NCBI GenBank assembly: GCA_014332815.1
Contig: JACSZT010000007.1
Location: 62,355-126,354, forward strand
Source: Weissella confusa
Lineage (GTDB): Bacteria > Bacillota > Bacilli > Lactobacillales > Lactobacillaceae
Length of the DNA stretch: 64,000 bases
Direction: 5' to 3'
Each line of letters begins with the position of its first letter. The stretch's first letter is position 1. The position numbers and the translations under genes are program-made. This document shows positions 1 through 8,531 of the stretch, piece by piece. A model generated the notes under the pieces. It saw nothing but the letters and a program-made list of their open reading frames with translations. It searched no databases and was not told the DNA's origin.

Positions 1-288
1 AACAGATAGAGGGAAGTCCTTACGTAGTTCCACATCATCTAATGACAACAACTCGTCAATAGTGGCGACGATGGCATCAGCCTTATCGGCATCTAATGAA
101 CCATTAGCCTTATTAGCGAAGGCAGCGGCGCGCTTGATGTTCAGCAAAGCACGGATAATGCCCAATGGCATACGGGATCCGGTTGGGAAGTTTTGCAATG
201 ACCGTTGTGTTTGCGCCATCCAAGCAGCATCAATTGGCACTTGTACTTCACCAATAGCGTCTGATTCAATACGGAATTCTTGTAACAT
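1..288 (-). CDS. fumC: fumarate hydratase class II, N-terminal part (cut by window edge)
   Basis: Class II fumarase interconverts fumarate and malate in the cytoplasm. Only the first 96 codons are in the window; the gene continues past position 1. The visible protein has the family's N-terminal signature: RIESDAIGEVQVP, then AQTQRSLQNF and MPLGIIRALLNIKRAAA, where fumarases and aspartases read GAQTQRS..NF and the first helices begin. The ATG at 286-288 follows an AAGGAGAA ribosome site. It is the last visible gene of a minus-strand cluster with an FMN reductase, ApbE, a PAS protein and a LysR regulator, which suggests it feeds a fumarate-reducing electron sink. The family call is firm; fumarase rather than another superfamily member is very likely from these motifs. 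Confidence 0.9.
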   Translation of the reverse strand, partial: MLQEFRIESDAIGEVQVPIDAAWMAQTQRSLQNFPTGSRMPLGIIRALLNIKRAAAFANKANGSLDADKADAIVATIDELLSLDDVELRKDFPLSV

Positions 289-312: not shown

Positions 313-1197
313 CTAAATCGTTAACGTCTTAATTGCTTCGATGATTTTGTTTTTAGTGACTTCTTCGAAGTCTGAGAGTTGATGATTGCGCTTCTGAATC
401 AAATAGATGTAGAAGTTAATCGGATTAGTTAACGGCACAATCGCCAAATCACGGCGGTCTTCCACGGCCAACCTAGCCATGATGCCTACTCCATTACCTG
501 CGGCAACTAAGCCTTGCTCTGTCAGAGCCTCATTCGTGATATACAAGTTGTGTATTTCTTCTGTCATATCATTTTCAACAAGTTGATCCATGAGAACACG
601 GTACGCTGTGAATTGTTTGGTGACTGTGATGAAACGTTCGCCTTTTAAATCACCTACTGATAGGGATGGTCGATTTGCTAGTGGGTGACCTAATGGCAAA
701 ATCACAACATAAGGGCTTTTAGTAATGAAGTAACTGTTATATTGCTTACTCTTCTCTGGGGTAAGTGATCCAATAAATCCCAAGTCAATTTTGTCTTGGT
801 CAATCAACTCGTACATACTGGCGGGCCCAGTTTCAACCATGTGAAACGAATCAATTTCTTTAGGACCTAACTGCGACATAATTCTTGGAAAAATTGTTGC
901 ACCAATCATCGGAGGAACACCCATGGCAATTTTTTGTTGCTTACCAATTTCGCTTTGAATAATCTCCGTTTCACGCATAATGATGCGACTGTGTCGTAAC
1001 AATGTTTCACCCGTATCGGTTAGACGTAAATCAGCATTTCCCCGTGTACGGATGATCAGCATGGTGTTTAGCTCATCTTCCAATCGGCGTAGCGCATTGG
1101 TTATCGATGGTTGCGAAACAAACTTTACGTGAGCTGCCTTGGTTATTGACCCTTCTTCAGCAATTGCAACAAAGTATTCCAAGTCATTTAATAACAT
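313..1197 (-). CDS. LysR-family transcriptional regulator
   Basis: A 294-residue protein with a winged-helix DNA-binding domain at about residues 1-60 (LEYFVAIAEEGSITKAA, then QPSITNALRRLEDEL) and a periplasmic-binding-like effector domain at about 90-290. This is standard LysR length. The start ATG is preceded by GAGGG. It sits 24 bases upstream of fumC and 37 bases downstream of the PAS gene, all on the same strand, so it is probably co-transcribed and may control the fumarate/flavin cluster in response to a small organic acid. The effector is not visible from sequence. LysR proteins are usually divergent from their targets, so its position inside the operon is slightly unusual. Confidence 0.9.
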   Translation of the reverse strand: MLLNDLEYFVAIAEEGSITKAAHVKFVSQPSITNALRRLEDELNTMLIIRTRGNADLRLTDTGETLLRHSRIIMRETEIIQSEIGKQQKIAMGVPPMIGATIFPRIMSQLGPKEIDSFHMVETGPASMYELIDQDKIDLGFIGSLTPEKSKQYNSYFITKSPYVVILPLGHPLANRPSLSVGDLKGERFITVTKQFTAYRVLMDQLVENDMTEEIHNLYITNEALTEQGLVAAGNGVGIMARLAVEDRRDLAIVPLTNPINFYIYLIQKRNHQLSDFEEVTKNKIIEAIKTLTI

Positions 1198-1234: not shown

Positions 1235-1705
1235 TTACTTGTCTGACTTACCTGAATTGAATGCCGTGCGAATGCCACGAAATCCTTGAATACGGGTGAT
1301 GTCCCCTGTGAACTGAAGCGTTCCTAGAAAAGTGCCATCAATATCGCGGACGGAATAATAGTTGGCATAAACTGTTTTGTCATTCTTAGGAAACCATTGT
1401 TCAAAATGACTTGCAGCACCATTGTGAAAATCTGTAAGCATGTTTTGAACGGCCTCTTGATCGGCTTCGGCAAACAATGAAACAAACGGCTTTCCTAGTG
1501 AATTTTGACTACGGGCATTCACACGATTGTCAACCGCTGAATAATAAACCAACTCGTCATCTGCATTAGCAAAGTCGATTTCGAATGGCAACAAGTTCAA
1601 TACTTGCCGTAACGTGTGCAATGAAATTTTACCTGTTGGTAGATTGATGACACCGTTGCCATCAACAATTGTTTGACTGTTTTCTAGTTCAATTTGATCT
1701 GCCAT
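1235..1705 (-). CDS. PAS domain protein (PAS_10-like)
   Basis: A 156-residue soluble protein. From about residue 35 it carries a PAS fold closely resembling the C-terminal PAS domain of DUF438 proteins: LPFEIDFANADDELVYYS, then a central stretch around NSLGKPFVSLF, and the closing strand GTLQFTGDITRI. There is no kinase, HTH or cyclase module, so it is a stand-alone sensor or cofactor-binding protein. Its ribosome site AAAGGAG lies within the last codons of apbE, which points to translational coupling. In this cluster a redox or flavin/heme sensing role is plausible but is inference. Confidence 0.8.
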   Translation of the reverse strand: MADQIELENSQTIVDGNGVINLPTGKISLHTLRQVLNLLPFEIDFANADDELVYYSAVDNRVNARSQNSLGKPFVSLFAEADQEAVQNMLTDFHNGAASHFEQWFPKNDKTVYANYYSVRDIDGTFLGTLQFTGDITRIQGFRGIRTAFNSGKSDK

Positions 1706-1709
1706 AAAA

Positions 1710-2654
1710 CTATGACTCCTTTAAATAAAATTCTGAATTTATAATTTTAAAATTTGACTGATCCATGTTGACCAGCTGTATTGACTTGTCACGGTAAATG
1801 AAAATGGCTCCGAATGGATAGTCACTATCTAGCGGTCCATCATTGAAGAACAAGCGCGTTGTTTCAATTTCACCATCAATTGACTCGGGAGAAATGACAG
1901 TAACACTTGCCAACTCATTATCGTGCGGATAACCCGTTTCTGAATCGATAATATGGTGATACATTTTGCCATCAACCATTAGATGGCGCTCGGCTACTCC
2001 ACTGGTCACGATTGATGCAGCCGGCGTCGTGAAACTTGCAATCTTTTCACCATGTCTAACCAAAGGATTGCGAACGCTCACCCGCCACATACCATTCTGT
2101 TTATGGGGTGCCGGATTCAATAACACGATATTTCCACCGAAATTAATAATGCCAGCAAGTTGTCCTTGTGCTTGCCAAAGATTTTTCACCCGGTCGGCAA
2201 TGTACCCCTTAGCGATTGCACCGAGGTCCAACTCCATGCCCGCAGTTGGTAGATACACCGATAAGTCGTCATCATTAAGAACAATCTCAGCTGGTGAGAT
2301 AATTCGTCGGCAATTTCTGATGTCAATTTCATCAGGCACGTTTGCGTCTGCAAAGCCGATGCGCCAAAGTTTAACCAGTGGTCCAATTGCGACGTTAAAC
2401 CCAAAATATTCGCGACTAACCATCACTGCACGTTTTACTAATTGATAAACCGTAGCTGGTACTTGAACTGAATGATTCCCAGCTGCTTTATTGATTGACA
2501 TCACCGACGAGTAATCACGGTTCACAGTGAACAAATTTTCATACTTTCGCACGAGGTCGATTGCTTCATCTAGGTAACGTTTATCGCTTGTGCCATACAG
2601 TATCACGCTATTCGTCGTGCCCATCGCTCGCCACGTTTTTTCAATTTTGATCAA
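1710..2654 (-). CDS. apbE: FAD:protein FMN transferase (ApbE)
   Basis: ApbE transfers the FMN half of FAD to a Thr or Ser in a short target motif. This 314-residue protein shows family marks: MGTTNSVILYG at the N-terminus, the LDLGAIAKGYIADRV block at about residues 140-155, IVTSGVAERH and HHIIDSETGYP at about 215-240. The start is TTG, with GGAG ten bases upstream, and it overlaps the FMN reductase stop by four bases. The GGAG is itself inside the reductase codons for its C-terminal TGAS sequence. No lipobox or signal peptide is visible, so it should be cytoplasmic. The overlapping upstream gene carries a candidate target site (see findings). Confidence 0.94.
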   Translation of the reverse strand: MIKIEKTWRAMGTTNSVILYGTSDKRYLDEAIDLVRKYENLFTVNRDYSSVMSINKAAGNHSVQVPATVYQLVKRAVMVSREYFGFNVAIGPLVKLWRIGFADANVPDEIDIRNCRRIISPAEIVLNDDDLSVYLPTAGMELDLGAIAKGYIADRVKNLWQAQGQLAGIINFGGNIVLLNPAPHKQNGMWRVSVRNPLVRHGEKIASFTTPAASIVTSGVAERHLMVDGKMYHHIIDSETGYPHDNELASVTVISPESIDGEIETTRLFFNDGPLDSDYPFGAIFIYRDKSIQLVNMDQSNFKIINSEFYLKES

Positions 2655-3502
2655 AACATTGACGCTCCGGTCGTGGCATCGTCTTCTTCATCATCTGTAG
2701 TAGTTGTTGCAGCTACTTTAGGCGTGACACCCTTGTCCGTTAGCTGTGTTTTCTCAATCCACCAACCATCACCACGATCCAACACTTTCGCATTGCCAGC
2801 GGGACTAATAACGATCGAAGGAACAGTATCTAAATCCAAGGCGCTACCCTGCAACACGTTCACAGTATCGCTGTACCCTAAATTTATATTGGCAACTTTA
2901 TCCTCGTTTGAGATTTTTGGTGTGCTGGATGTCGCACGATTCATCGCTATGGCACGCATTGGTCGAAGTGAATCGGCAAACACCATAAAGTTGCTAAAGA
3001 TTTGCTCAAGGAATCCAACGGTACCAGTGTCAGTCAATTCTTCATGGGCCACATCAATGTTAGCTGCTGCTGGTCCCAGCAAAAACTGATTCCCTGGCAA
3101 TACAAACGCGTCCAAACCCGGCGCATCCATAATTTGTCGTAAGTGCTCTTGGGCGTTTGTCGTTCCCATCTTCCCCAATGACGTACCAACAATCATTACA
3201 GGCATGTTCGTAAATGGATGAAGCGATCCATAACTCATCCACTCGATTACCGACTTCAATGACGCAGTAATTGAATGATCATATTCTGGTGTTGAAATAA
3301 TCACACCGTCTGCTGCTTCGATTTGACGCGCCATTTCTTCTACTCGAAGTGGCACCTCCGCCTCCTCACTAAACAGTGGCAAACCGGCGATTTCTGCAAT
3401 TTCAATGTTTGCTTGGTCTTTAAAATGTTTCTTCATAAACCAAAGTAAGCTTCGGTTATACGACTTGCGGGCATTGGTTCCCACAATTGCTACTAAATTC
3501 AT
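2651..3502 (-). CDS. NAD(P)H-dependent FMN reductase with C-terminal flavinylation-like tag
   Basis: Residues 1-185 form a flavodoxin-like NADPH-dependent FMN reductase domain (VAIVGTNARKSYNRSLL phosphate loop, IISTPEYDHSITASLK flavin-contact loop, then MIVGTSLGKMG). The remaining ~95 residues are an extension not found in plain FMN reductases, ending in a Thr/Asp/Glu-rich linker and the terminal residues DDATTGASMF. DATTGAS matches the ApbE substrate consensus Dxx(S/T)GA(T/S). It is the first gene of the cluster, with AGAGGTT before the ATG. Likely role: NAD(P)H-dependent electron input to a flavin-dependent reductase, with a covalently bound FMN on the tail. Reductase fold is well supported; covalent FMN is inference. 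Confidence 0.85.
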   Translation of the reverse strand: MNLVAIVGTNARKSYNRSLLWFMKKHFKDQANIEIAEIAGLPLFSEEAEVPLRVEEMARQIEAADGVIISTPEYDHSITASLKSVIEWMSYGSLHPFTNMPVMIVGTSLGKMGTTNAQEHLRQIMDAPGLDAFVLPGNQFLLGPAAANIDVAHEELTDTGTVGFLEQIFSNFMVFADSLRPMRAIAMNRATSSTPKISNEDKVANINLGYSDTVNVLQGSALDLDTVPSIVISPAGNAKVLDRGDGWWIEKTQLTDKGVTPKVAATTTTDDEEDDATTGASMF

Positions 3503-5339: not shown

Positions 5340-5861
5340 TCAAGTTTTTTGCGGTAAATTTTGATACATCGTCATTATCCGAGAAAACGGATGAAACAGC
5401 GCTATGACGCACATAAACGTCGTCACACAATGCGCAAAATCAAACGATAATCCGGCCAACCAATAACTCCAAATTGCGGGCCAATTAAATCCACCAAATA
5501 AGAATGGTGCTTGCAAGATTGTCGTCCAAAATCCGTAAGTTAAACAGAAGACTAGGCCAACAATCAATGCCATGCTTTTTTCATCAGCAACACGCCGACT
5601 ACCACTGGTAATCAATACCAAACCGGCATACAAAATCAGTTGCACCATCACCACCGGGTGCATCCCCAACAACAATCCCGTTAAAATCACAGCAAGACTT
5701 GCTGCTGGTAAGGCAATGCGCCAGCCAAAATACCAAGCAACAAGGATGACCAAGGCGGTGAACGGGGTCACATTTGGCCATGGATGCACGAACAGGCGCG
5801 CGACAACCATCACGGCCGTCAACACGCCTGTCATCGCCACCCAATGTAGCGTTTTTGTCAT
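5340..5861 (-). CDS. cbrT: ECF transporter S component, cobalamin type (CbrT-like)
   Basis: A 173-residue integral membrane protein with about six hydrophobic helices and the family's NVTPFTALVILVAWYFG loop near residue 30, where S components for cobalamin and related ligands have a conserved Pro/Asn region. S components bind the substrate and pair with the shared EcfA-A'-T module, which is not in this window. The gene overlaps the DUF4430 gene by one base (TAATG) and lies downstream of the cobalamin-dependent nrdJ, so vitamin B12 uptake is the best guess. The S-component fold is well supported; the ligand rests on context. Confidence 0.8.
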   Translation of the reverse strand: MTKTLHWVAMTGVLTAVMVVARLFVHPWPNVTPFTALVILVAWYFGWRIALPAASLAVILTGLLLGMHPVVMVQLILYAGLVLITSGSRRVADEKSMALIVGLVFCLTYGFWTTILQAPFLFGGFNWPAIWSYWLAGLSFDFAHCVTTFMCVIALFHPFSRIMTMYQNLPQKT

Positions 5862-6271
5862 TAGAACTGCTTCAACTCAAAGGTAATACGATCACCAGAA
5901 TGCAACTTCAAATCAGCGGGCGCTTCACTGGTTTGCTTTCCATTTACCGTATAAACCCAGTATTGGTTCTTCACTTGATTCTGCGCACGACCATCGATTT
6001 CAGTAATAAACCCATCGGCCGTGACCGACATCTTCGGCTCACGCTTCTCGTTTTGGGCCAAATCTAATAGCGTCTCGCCCTTTTTCAACGTCACTTTGAA
6101 CGTCTTCTCTTTACCATCATGCTTCACAACCATTGTCACATGACGTTCAGCTTTCGATTGCGTTGTTTGAGCATCTGTGCGGCTTTGCCAGTGTTGCATA
6201 CCAAACAGTGTCCCACCAATAATCAAAACCAACGCAATCAACAACATCAAAACTTTACTAATTACTCGCAT
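5861..6271 (-). CDS. DUF4430 cell-surface protein, transcobalamin-like fold
   Basis: A 136-residue protein with a hydrophobic N-terminal segment at about residues 8-25 that should anchor it in the membrane or serve as a signal peptide; there is no Cys lipobox. The remainder is one DUF4430 domain, a beta-rich module related to the C-terminal domain of transcobalamin and intrinsic factor, with the typical KKGETLLDLAQ, QYWVYTVNGK and SGDRITFEL blocks. Placed between nrdJ and an ECF S component with a one-base overlap, it is likely a cobalamin capture or delivery protein for the transporter. Confidence 0.8.
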   Translation of the reverse strand: MRVISKVLMLLIALVLIIGGTLFGMQHWQSRTDAQTTQSKAERHVTMVVKHDGKEKTFKVTLKKGETLLDLAQNEKREPKMSVTADGFITEIDGRAQNQVKNQYWVYTVNGKQTSEAPADLKLHSGDRITFELKQF

Positions 6272-6286
6272 CTCTCTGCTCCTGCG

Positions 6287-8467
6287 TTACTTAATTGGGC
6301 ATGCACCCGTTTCACAATCACTTGAATCAACCAAGTCCATCAACTTATCTTCGCTGTGTAGCGCTTCATAGACTGCTTGCACATCGCCGAATACTGATAC
6401 TGAACGTTCAGCATAATCTTCAGCTGAAATTGGTTCCTTTGGTGCTTGCGCAAAACCATGTCCTGAGTAAGGCAACATTGACGTTGACTTAATTTGTGGG
6501 GCATATTGACGCAACATCTTAGCCAACAAAGGCTTTTCATCCTCTTGGAACGTAATCGTGCAGCTAACCGAATTGTCAGCCCAGTACTTTTGCAAGAACG
6601 CTTGGTTAGCCAATTGCTCGGCAACGCTCACTTCACCAGCTGACTTAAATCCAGGGTAATCAGCTGAAGCAGCCTTAACTGGGAACTCAACAACCATTGT
6701 GTTTTCTGAGTAAACATCCGGTTCGATGTGGTAACGAGCCGCTTGCAACGCCTTCAACAACGGATCCGTATCTTGGAAACGAATACGTTGAATCAAGTGG
6801 TCAGCGTAGTTAAAGTGCATTCCTTCTGAAACACCCGTCAACTTTGATACCGTACCTGATGGCTTAACCGTCGTGCACTTCACTGATGGATTGCAGTGTA
6901 ACGTTGCTGAGTATTGTGCATCAGCTTCCTTAACTGCTTGGTACAAACGGTCAACTTCATTGATCAACTCTTGGTTGTAGATTGGTGTGTCACCATCCCA
7001 GCCCGTCACAACAGGTGCGCCGAATGACGTCAAAACCCAATCTTGAATACCTGACAAAGACACCCCGATACGACGGTTCTTGTTGATAATTTGACGTGAA
7101 ATCTCCCAATCATATGGACTAAATGTGACACGCTTAGCAAAACGAGCTCCCAATGCAACGATGCGGGCAGGGTCAAAACCTTGTTCCATCGCAACGTTTG
7201 GGAAGACCTCAAACAAGTTGCAGGCTTCACCGTTTGCCAAAGAAATTTCACCACATGGGTTCGTTCCTTCAACATCGGCATCAATCCCTGGTTGCTCACC
7301 ATCAGCTAAACGACCGTAGTTACGCAACAAATCCAAGTTAACAACCCCGGGTTCACCATTTTCAGCAATGGCAGCAGCGATGTCATCGTATTCAGCCGTG
7401 TCATCAGCTGTTACGAAAACAGAATTGTTAGATGCCCAACGGTGGTGGTAGAGCTTTTCCTTGTCTTGCTTCATCGCGACAAAGGCTGCATCATCGGCAT
7501 CCCCAAGCGCGATTTCAGCAGAACGGCGTACGCCACCAGAAACAACTGTCTTACCAATCAAGTTTGCAATGTCCGTGCAATCAACTGATGACAAGTGCTC
7601 ACCCAACGTGTCGTTCAACAAGTCGTTCACATCTTGAATCAACTCAATCAATGGGGCTGGACCAGAAGCAACACCACCAAAGCCCTTAATCTTGGTACCC
7701 TTGGCACGGATAGCTGAAACATCATAAACAACCGCACGCTTCATGTCTTGGCGGAAGTGACGATCAATCAAATCAGCCGTCATCAAGACCCAACCTTCAC
7801 GTGTGTCAGGAACCGTCACAACATCGGCATCCCCAACCATGATTTCAGTTGCGTTATCCGCTCCTGCAATACGGGCTTCTTCATACGCATCAGCCTCAGA
7901 GTTAATCACAATAGTGGCATCAACCGTTTGGGCAACCGCTGGCATTTGGACGACATTCTTTTGCGTCACAGAAACACCAACACCGCCACCCTTCATCAAT
8001 TGGTCGAACAAGAAAGCAAATGGCATTGATGCCATGATTTCTTGCTTGTCTGCATATGGTGGCACAATGTGGCTCTCACCATATGCTTGTGGACGCATGG
8101 CCACAAACCAGCAATTGTTCAACGCATCACCGTGCGCCTCTTGATAAGGCGTCCCTGAAATCCACAAGTTACGACCAGATGGTGTTGCAGACAATGAGTA
8201 AATCGCACGGAACAATTCCTCAGCTTCGATTTGTAGCGCATCAATATCAGCAACTGACGCTGTACCTTCTTGCAAACGTGGATCCAAGTTGATGTTTCCT
8301 TCGATTACACGCTTAACCGTTTCATGCCATTCTTCTGTACGTCCCGCTGCATCATTCCAACGTGCATACGTACGCTTGTAGGTTACCCAGCCCAACGTTC
8401 CCCAGTGTGGATTAATGTTCGCAATTGTTTCGGCGACAAACGCGTCTGATAACTTAATAGACCCCAT
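6287..8467 (-). CDS. nrdJ: adenosylcobalamin-dependent class II ribonucleotide reductase
   Basis: Reduces ribonucleoside triphosphates to deoxynucleotides using adenosylcobalamin, as in Lactobacillus leichmannii. The 726-residue size matches the monomeric enzyme. NPHWGTLGWVTYKRTYARW near the N-terminus, NNCWFVAMRP, the thiyl-radical site NPCGEISLANG and the C-terminal redox pair at Cys718 and Cys723 (CETGACPIK) are all present. The start was set at the ATG 8465-8467 because AAAAGGGG lies seven bases upstream; an in-frame ATG eight codons earlier has no such site. It heads an operon with the DUF4430 and ECF genes. Confidence 0.97.
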   Translation of the reverse strand: MGSIKLSDAFVAETIANINPHWGTLGWVTYKRTYARWNDAAGRTEEWHETVKRVIEGNINLDPRLQEGTASVADIDALQIEAEELFRAIYSLSATPSGRNLWISGTPYQEAHGDALNNCWFVAMRPQAYGESHIVPPYADKQEIMASMPFAFLFDQLMKGGGVGVSVTQKNVVQMPAVAQTVDATIVINSEADAYEEARIAGADNATEIMVGDADVVTVPDTREGWVLMTADLIDRHFRQDMKRAVVYDVSAIRAKGTKIKGFGGVASGPAPLIELIQDVNDLLNDTLGEHLSSVDCTDIANLIGKTVVSGGVRRSAEIALGDADDAAFVAMKQDKEKLYHHRWASNNSVFVTADDTAEYDDIAAAIAENGEPGVVNLDLLRNYGRLADGEQPGIDADVEGTNPCGEISLANGEACNLFEVFPNVAMEQGFDPARIVALGARFAKRVTFSPYDWEISRQIINKNRRIGVSLSGIQDWVLTSFGAPVVTGWDGDTPIYNQELINEVDRLYQAVKEADAQYSATLHCNPSVKCTTVKPSGTVSKLTGVSEGMHFNYADHLIQRIRFQDTDPLLKALQAARYHIEPDVYSENTMVVEFPVKAASADYPGFKSAGEVSVAEQLANQAFLQKYWADNSVSCTITFQEDEKPLLAKMLRQYAPQIKSTSMLPYSGHGFAQAPKEPISAEDYAERSVSVFGDVQAVYEALHSEDKLMDLVDSSDCETGACPIK

Positions 8468-8531
8468 TTCAATACCCCTTTTTAGTAACATTTCGTTAGT
8501 ATACGAACATTACTCGTTCTTTGCTGTGTCT

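Follow-up and report, generated by a model that had tools for sequence, protein, structure and literature searches.

A flavodoxin-fold FMN reductase with a predicted ApbE-flavinylated tail in a fumarate-linked gene cluster of Weissella confusa

The window analysed here, a stretch of 64,000 nucleotides of Weissella confusa DNA (assembly GCA_014332815.1, contig JACSZT010000007.1, positions 62,355 to 126,354 of the forward strand), carries near one end a gene for a flavin mononucleotide (FMN) reductase whose disordered C-terminal tail ends in a motif for covalent flavin attachment, and beside it apbE, the gene for the transferase that would attach the flavin. The features of this gene pair are as follows (aa, amino acids; FAD, flavin adenine dinucleotide).

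2651..3502, minus strand: NAD(P)H:FMN reductase (FMN_red), 283 aa, with a core of residues 1-188 and a disordered C-terminal tail (Pfam, AlphaFold)
2660..2680, minus strand: codons of the ApbE motif DATTGAS, residues 275-281, read from the sequence and invariant in genomes G056, G087 and G138
2747..2788, minus strand: conserved tail segment with GDGWWIEK, residues 239-252, a predicted weak hairpin
1710..2654, minus strand: ApbE, FAD:protein FMN transferase, TTG start (Pfam ApbE, 3.2e-61; match to 7esa, 2.7e-55)

Pfam assigns residues 1-144 of the reductase to FMN_red (PF03358; 8.8e-35), and the structures nearest to its core are 1rtt and ChrR (3svl), both by Foldseek and by sequence. In an AlphaFold model from a 15-sequence input, confidence (predicted local distance difference test, pLDDT) is about 90 up to residue 188 and mostly below 50 across the tail, residues 189-283 (95 residues). 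Two core residues, S14 and E73, are invariant across 15 aligned relatives. The translation of 2651-3502 ends in TTTTDDEEDDATTGASMF-stop (in a longer view, DDEEDDATTGASMF-stop) and contains, as a preliminary description of this DNA had stated, a terminal DATTGAS that fits the consensus Dxx(S/T)GA(T/S). The predicted FMN acceptor is Ser281 (codon 2660-2662); Met-Phe follows the motif, then the stop. The Thr/Asp/Glu-rich linker also reported there is confined to the last ~15 linker residues and does not describe the rest of the tail. No Pfam domain matches the tail even at an expectation value (E) of up to 1, which rules out a hidden FMN_bind domain. Low-confidence strands are predicted at tail residues 239-244 and 247-251, and the segment G[DE]GWW[IV]E is common to the window tail, its three close orthologues and the tail of Lactococcus fujiensis; GDGWW[IV]EK is perhaps a docking element.

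The apbE gene follows the reductase gene with the four-base overlap (TTGA; 1710-2654 versus 2651-3502, both on the minus strand) that had been noted before, and the orthologous clusters of G056, G087 and G138 encode ApbEs 68-69% identical to its product. No lipoprotein signal was recognised by eye at the start of the protein, MIKIEKTWRAMGTTNS, so that this ApbE is probably cytosolic. The GDGLST stretch of 7esa, which we take to be Listeria FmnB, reads GEIETT in the window ApbE, so that Glu replaces the presumed active-site Asp. GEIETT, GEVETT or AEIETT is found in the ApbEs of the window, Periweissella, Ligilactobacillus, Lactiplantibacillus and Lactococcus fujiensis, and for 39 ApbEs the pattern used gave no reading of this stretch.

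Motif occurrence was scored with a strict pattern, D-x-x-[ST]-G-A-[ST], and a relaxed one, D..[STA][GSA][AS][ST]. Among the 69 non-overlapping open reading frames (ORFs) of at least 100 aa in the window (18,893 aa), the reductase alone has the strict motif. In related loci it appears in 4 of 846 ORFs of at least 150 aa that were unlabelled by seven query proteins (280,882 aa), and all four (L064, L090, L101, L109) sit directly before an apbE. Shuffling the 95-residue tail 100,000 times produced the strict motif in 0.34% of cases, and at most 8 residues from the end in 0.04%. As a control, the relaxed pattern occurs anywhere in 26 of the 846 unlabelled ORFs, near the C-terminus in two (L101 and L109, whose motifs are really strict) and at least twice within the last 120 residues in none. 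The reductase orthologues of G056, G087 and G138 (genus g19, Periweissella) are 64-66% identical to the window protein, with 138-139 of 185 identities in the core, 35-39 of 89 (39-44%) in the linker and 9 of 9 in the last nine residues, and the motif codons vary synonymously among the four genes. A GGAG in the Gly-Ala codons of the motif, ~10 nucleotides before the apbE TTG, bears out for the window the earlier placement of the apbE ribosome site within the motif codons; the three g19 copies read GGT GCA there. Because GGAG is absent from these copies and the codons change synonymously, it is the protein that is conserved, and a ribosome-binding site as the cause of the conservation is ruled out.

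Tailed, flavinylated FMN_red proteins are not new in kind. The consulted sections of PMC11334425 (2024) report ApbE-associated FMN_red proteins, mainly from Firmicutes, whose extended C-terminal region bears one to two motifs, a range that includes the single strict motif of the window tail. Two such Lactococcus proteins (WP_021723379.1 and WP_205872264.1) were flavinylated by their cognate ApbE, as seen on ultraviolet-viewed gels, and Ser/Thr-to-Ala replacement abolished the modification (PMC11334425). Since motif, apbE context, conservation and this published flavinylation agree, the reductase tail is very likely an ApbE substrate, as had been proposed, with predicted flavinylation on Ser281. 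The further claim that this substrate differs from FMN_bind domains is correct in that the reductase has none, although the class had already been named in PMC11334425. FMN_bind (PF04205) was also not found elsewhere in the organism's own genome, a weak absence given that this genome scored 66.5% complete; the same genome shows one ApbE, one FMN_red match at E <= 1e-20, and one full-length FAD_binding_2 match plus two short stretches.

Beyond apbE the gene run continues across the window edge, where coordinates refer to locus L001.

1235..1705, minus strand: stand-alone PAS_10 protein, 156 aa, without a tail motif (Pfam PAS_10, 5.7e-11)
313..1197, minus strand: LysR-type regulator (Pfam HTH_1, 6.2e-19; LysR_substrate, 6.8e-22)
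1..288, minus strand: fumC (fumarase, 464 aa), start only in the window; full gene at L001 17249-18643
L001 15849-17300, same strand as the cluster: fumarate reductase (Frd), 483 aa, or 464 aa from the likelier ATG (Pfam FAD_binding_2)
L001 14397-15818, same strand as the cluster: DASS transporter, beyond the window edge, after Frd

The seven genes, in the order FMN_red-apbE-PAS-LysR-fumC-Frd-DASS, share one strand and are spaced by a few to ~40 bases, and the same order recurs in G056, G087 and G138, three of the five g19 genomes seen. A profile with the window PAS_10 protein as first row retrieves LjPAS-type proteins and FMN_red-PAS fusions. Frd matches flavocytochrome c3 fumarate reductases (1d4c, 2.9e-107), aligned from residue 116 and without the N-terminal haem part. 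Its stretches IQIHPT, EMTTRDKA, IHYTMGG and NNRIGGN align with His365, Arg402, His504 and Arg544 of 1d4c, which, in numbering and role, we take to be the catalytic residues of the fumarate site. Pfam finds in Frd FAD_binding_2 and overlapping FAD/NAD-binding families only, with no haem domain or FMN_bind of its own. On the other side of the reductase gene, at 5340-8491, genes for an ECF-transporter S-like protein (below the Pfam cut-off), a DUF4430 protein and a B12-dependent ribonucleotide reductase adjoin; they probably represent cobalamin uptake beside a cobalamin enzyme.

Relatives were collected as a non-random sample from an ApbE scan of species genomes (six queries; 80 loci, the best 80 of 584), from 40 regions picked by frame length among 150 FMN_red matches listed, and from an LjPAS-sized set (22 read of 30 listed). 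Counts per class refer to unique sequences and exclude fumarate-reductase matches and proteins above 600 aa, among them the 887-aa protein of L100; a 264-aa ORF of L145, counted among the motif-free FMN_reds away from apbE, resembles a broken fusion more than a tail. The strict motif is present in all nine FMN_reds of more than 240 aa that adjoin apbE, in 22 of 26 FMN_red-PAS fusions adjoining apbE (relaxed only in the other 4) and in 22 of 24 such fusions away from it (relaxed in 2). Stand-alone PAS proteins carry it in 21 of 22 cases away from apbE, the exception being L203, and in 4 of 9 beside apbE, where the other five resemble the window protein in leaving the motif to the FMN_red next to them. 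Short FMN_reds (<=240 aa) provide a built-in negative control, with the strict motif in 1 of 80; beside apbE, 30 of 31 lack it, which rules out that every apbE-adjacent FMN_red bears the motif. For most of these 30, a motif is carried by the FMN_red-PAS fusion next to them or, as in Lactobacillus, by an LjPAS whose gene lies elsewhere. The association of tail and apbE anticipated in the preliminary description is kept in G056, G087 and G138 and in the nine longer apbE-adjacent FMN_reds. Motif-free homologues beside apbE, which it had held to speak against its prediction, are missing among these longer proteins and, by the strict pattern, amount to 4 of the 26 fusions, but they make up nearly all of the short FMN_reds.

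Among the 79 proteins that bear a motif, 70 have their final strict copy at most 5 residues from the C-terminus. Motif numbers range from one in P. fabalis through three in Lactococcus fujiensis and Ligilactobacillus ruminis and four in Limosilactobacillus oris to six in a PAS protein of Lacticaseibacillus kribbianus. Among the 40 chosen regions, 31 encode a tail in which the strict motif occurs one to six times, in most cases as part of an FMN_red-PAS fusion that follows a short FMN_red; 7 have relaxed motifs only and 2 have none. An Aerococcaceae protein of 887 aa (L100:8541-11204) combines FMN_red with three PAS_10 domains and has three strict motifs between and after the latter. Repeats of the SAS type (DAVSSAS, DAVASAS, DTGASAS) occur in FMN_red-PAS tails of L125, L129, L139, L150, L154, L157 and L227-L229; within a tail the repeats have shifted in concert from GAS to SAS or a similar form, and apbE is adjacent in most cases. 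The move from GAS to SAS was perhaps accompanied by a change of ApbE in some lineages, and a shift in ApbE specificity is a possible explanation. In the ApbE scan, the transferase of 21 Enterobacterales/Gilliamella loci adjoins a fumarate-reductase-like protein that bears a motif itself. At the 59 other loci, a strict-motif FMN_red, FMN_red-PAS_10 or PAS_10 protein lies at most four genes away in 25, and in 7 the only motif carrier is of another kind, such as an FMN_bind fusion. The Lactiplantibacillus ApbE of L046-L048, L050-L052 and L056 stands beside a motif-free protein of 136-157 aa, with no motif carrier within four genes, and its substrate must lie elsewhere.

At the genome level, 121 of 201 Lactobacillaceae genomes have ApbE, 92 an FMN_bind domain and 96 a member of the FMN_red family. 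ApbE and FMN_red occur together in 95 genomes, FMN_red alone in 1, ApbE alone in 26 and neither in 79, a strong association, although the counts are uncorrected for phylogeny. The FMN_red count takes in tailless proteins and FMN_bind-bearing fusions, and inspected tails were given more weight. Twenty-nine genomes have ApbE without FMN_bind, a set defined by this one ApbE substrate domain (others are DUF2271, DUF3570 and NqrB); 26 of them have FMN_red. Tails with a strict motif were seen in 20 of the 29, relaxed motifs only (SSAS, VASAS, ASAS and others) in 7, and none in 2, namely G114 and G043, the latter with a weak, uninspected ApbE match. The motif carrier is a PAS protein and not FMN_red in G116 and G155. 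According to the consulted part of PMC8238504, 4% of the genomes in its dataset have ApbE without a known substrate, a gap that disordered tails would help to fill by supplying substrates for seemingly orphan ApbEs.

The motif-bearing PAS proteins lead to a system that has been studied experimentally. As described in the consulted sections of PMC4500961, FRedA and FRedB (FRedA/B) of L. johnsonii are NADH oxidases that make H2O2, and LjPAS slows the assembly of the active complex; the LjPAS reverse primer given there decodes, read by hand, to Ser-Gly-Ala-Ser-Glu-Tyr-stop. Of the LjPAS orthologues from 41 genomes that share the genus of G037, presumed to be Lactobacillus, 21 of the 22 read have a strict motif, 17 of these 21 have three, and 7 of the 22 end exactly in SGASEY. 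The orthologue of L203 has a tail that looks frameshifted just before the motifs, by sequencing error or real loss. The words 'apbe' and 'covalent' have 0 occurrences in the main text of PMC4500961, and ApbE co-expression does not appear in the examined part of its strain table. We infer that native LjPAS would carry covalent FMN. If so, LjPAS is an unrecognised multi-flavin protein, which would allow a direct test of whether the published LjPAS experiments used the protein without its cofactor.

FMN_red and fumarate reductase modules meet in several arrangements. FMN_red-PAS proteins stand beside Frd in L155, L156 and L157, two with strict motifs and one with relaxed motifs. L083 encodes a single chain of FMN_red, FAD_binding_2 and FMN_bind, and 45 of the 150 FMN_red matches listed lie in open frames of at least 700 aa. 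Five further genomes (L215-L219) have Frd, along with fumC and DASS, next to a tailless FMN_red. It sits between the fumC and Frd genes in four of them and follows Frd in the fifth, and is a plausible donor for the soluble fumarate reductase. Across the Lactobacillaceae genomes, Frd and FMN_red occur together in 72, Frd alone in 32, FMN_red alone in 24 and neither in 73, again uncorrected for phylogeny.

The continuation of the window cluster into PAS, LysR, fumC, Frd and a transporter, which the preliminary description had missed, suggests a function, and because Frd has no FMN_bind domain, the tail of the FMN reductase could carry its electrons. The reading that we favour, at a probability of roughly 0.57, is that of a tethered-flavin NAD(P)H dehydrogenase whose tail would be flavinylated by the ApbE of the overlapping gene and which would feed the soluble Frd. 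The tail of the cytosolic reductase would receive FMN on Ser281 from ApbE, and NAD(P)H would reduce FMN at the flavodoxin-fold active site. The tail FMN may be identical with the active-site flavin, or it may be an additional one that receives electrons from the latter; the tail FMN would then swing out and pass electrons to a partner flavoprotein, most likely to the FAD of the cluster Frd and on to fumarate. Together with FumC and the dicarboxylate transporter, this would provide a cytosolic NADH sink from malate through fumarate to succinate. The PAS_10 protein is probably a docking partner or a modulator of the reductase, as LjPAS is reported to be. We infer the electron route (NAD(P)H, FMN_red, tail FMN, Frd FAD, fumarate), its substrate and the role of the PAS protein from gene content and order; the reductase is likely to act as donor in the window cluster, but this would not be general. 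Several motifs in one tail would favour a carrier over a means of flavin retention, and the single motif here makes both possible.

A number of observations weigh against the tethered donor. The five tailless FMN_reds beside Frd either work without a tethered flavin or use one from another protein. Of 104 Lactobacillaceae genomes with Frd, 32 have no FMN_red match and 23 have neither FMN_red nor ApbE, among them G137 and three g17 genomes, whose g17 Frd is 68-70% identical. Because of these 23, Frd can do without a tailed donor, and it is ruled out that Frd always needs one. An FMN_red among the 150 listed lies at most 9 kb from Frd in 14 of the 110 rows taken (116 listed). The cluster is also patchy: among the g19 genomes, G019 has apbE and two FMN_reds, one with relaxed motifs only and one with none, and its Frd is on another contig, while G114 has ApbE and no FMN_red match. 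The window FMN_red was found in 0 of 7 other genomes of its genus, of which G137 has Frd. Full conservation is ruled out by these figures, with 3 of 5 g19 genomes for the cluster and 0 of 7 in the window's genus for FMN_red, and this patchiness slightly lowers our confidence and slightly raises that in flavin retention and in oxygen as acceptor. Of the 59 non-enterobacterial ApbE loci, 27 have no motif-bearing neighbour within four genes; grouped by record titles, these are 13 from Lactobacillus (LjPAS elsewhere), 7 from Lactiplantibacillus and 7 others. Finally, claims of absence for the organism's own genome are weak because of its 66.5% completeness.

The tail might merely lock one FMN into the reductase's own pocket, electrons going to free flavin, oxygen or quinones and the fumarate genes being co-regulated only. 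We regard this as unlikely, if far from negligible: PMC11334425, in the sections consulted, places the motif, in a model, beside the site of the non-covalent FMN and makes this very proposal, namely that the tail holds FMN in an existing pocket, and the invariant S14 and E73 would equal Ser14 and Glu73, FMN contacts in the FRedA/B model of PMC4500961 if the same numbering is assumed. On the other hand, tails with three to six motifs (L063, L088, L163; 17 of 22 LjPAS orthologues) exceed one pocket, stand-alone PAS proteins bear the motif without an FMN_red pocket in the same chain, a 95-residue disordered linker exceeds the needs of retention, and L083 unites FMN_red with FAD_binding_2 and FMN_bind. 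A mainly O2-reducing or redox-sensing module, in which H2O2 is made under PAS regulation as in FRedA/B-LjPAS and Frd is not the acceptor, appears improbable to us; it is favoured by the NADH-dependent H2O2 formation of FRedA/B and its modulation by LjPAS (PMC4500961, in part), by the PAS_10 protein inside the window cluster and by the many tailed loci without a nearby fumarate reductase. It fits poorly with the presence of fumC, Frd and DASS in the same gene run of the window cluster and its three counterparts. Oxygen reduction is, moreover, a common side reaction of flavins. That the motif is accidental or vestigial and the neighbouring ApbE modifies another target is most improbable, even if flavinylation drops by 10-55% when Ser replaces Thr (PMC12052999, in part) and some lineages have degenerate motifs, in view of the 0.34% of shuffled tails, the invariance in three orthologues despite synonymous codon change, the FMN_bind domain not found in the organism's own genome and the flavinylation proven for relatives (PMC11334425).

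For Lactobacillaceae as a whole we offer a more tentative proposal, to which we would give somewhat less than even odds. Disordered tails that bear one to six covalent FMNs per chain and have no FMN_bind fold may act as cytosolic swinging-arm carriers from an NAD(P)H:FMN reductase to interchangeable acceptors, namely Frd in the window organism and Periweissella, and O2 or PAS-gated acceptors in Lactobacillus. Flavinylation has mostly been discussed for extracytosolic proteins and folded FMN_bind domains. If the proposal is true, candidate tails (strict and relaxed together) explain 27 of the 29 FMN_bind-free ApbE genomes, a cytosolic, disordered, multi-site flavin arm is the redox counterpart of lipoyl and biotinyl arms, and an electron donor for soluble fumarate reductases in lactic acid bacteria is at hand. 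In the main text of PMC11334425 the string 'lactobacill' is absent and 'pas' opens a word twice, and a fumarate cluster, PAS-borne tails and more than two motifs per FMN_red tail were not met there; in the open-licence literature we found no publication joining LjPAS or FMN_red-PAS to ApbE. Not found in print are the fumarate-linked seven-gene cluster, the FMN_red-PAS and PAS tails with one to six motifs, the LjPAS motif and the tails in FMN_bind-free ApbE genomes.

Among known systems, the Lactococcus FMN_reds (PMC11334425, consulted sections) are closest to the window reductase, as both have an FMN_red domain, an unstructured motif-bearing C-terminal extension and an adjoining apbE. The Lactococcus tails bear one to two motifs, whereas relatives of the window protein have up to six and also PAS-borne tails. 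With FRedA/FRedB-LjPAS the window shares an FMN_red enzyme with a PAS_10 partner (1235-1705), and fusions of the two were noted in PMC4500961, in the part consulted. There, however, the motif is on the PAS protein; in the window it is on FMN_red, and the PAS protein is bare. FRedA/B is a heterodimer of two FMN_reds; the one FMN_red match in the organism's own genome is a count of little weight at 66.5% completeness. HcrB and Par1 presumably share the domain composition of L083, which was tested on L083 alone. Like HcrB/Par1-type reductases (PMC10295242, as far as consulted) and L083, the cluster combines an NADH-reactive FMN_red with a fumarate-reductase-like FAD module, and L083 has a flavinylation motif as well. 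In L083 the modules form one 800-aa chain with FMN_bind, whereas in the window they are separate genes and a disordered tail replaces FMN_bind. The flavinylated site of the Klebsiella fumarate reductase is, we assume, within its FMN_bind domain. That system resembles the window in having a cytosolic ApbE that serves a soluble fumarate reductase, but the flavinylated site of the Klebsiella system is on the fumarate reductase itself (PMC12052999, consulted in part), and the site predicted here is on a separate FMN reductase.

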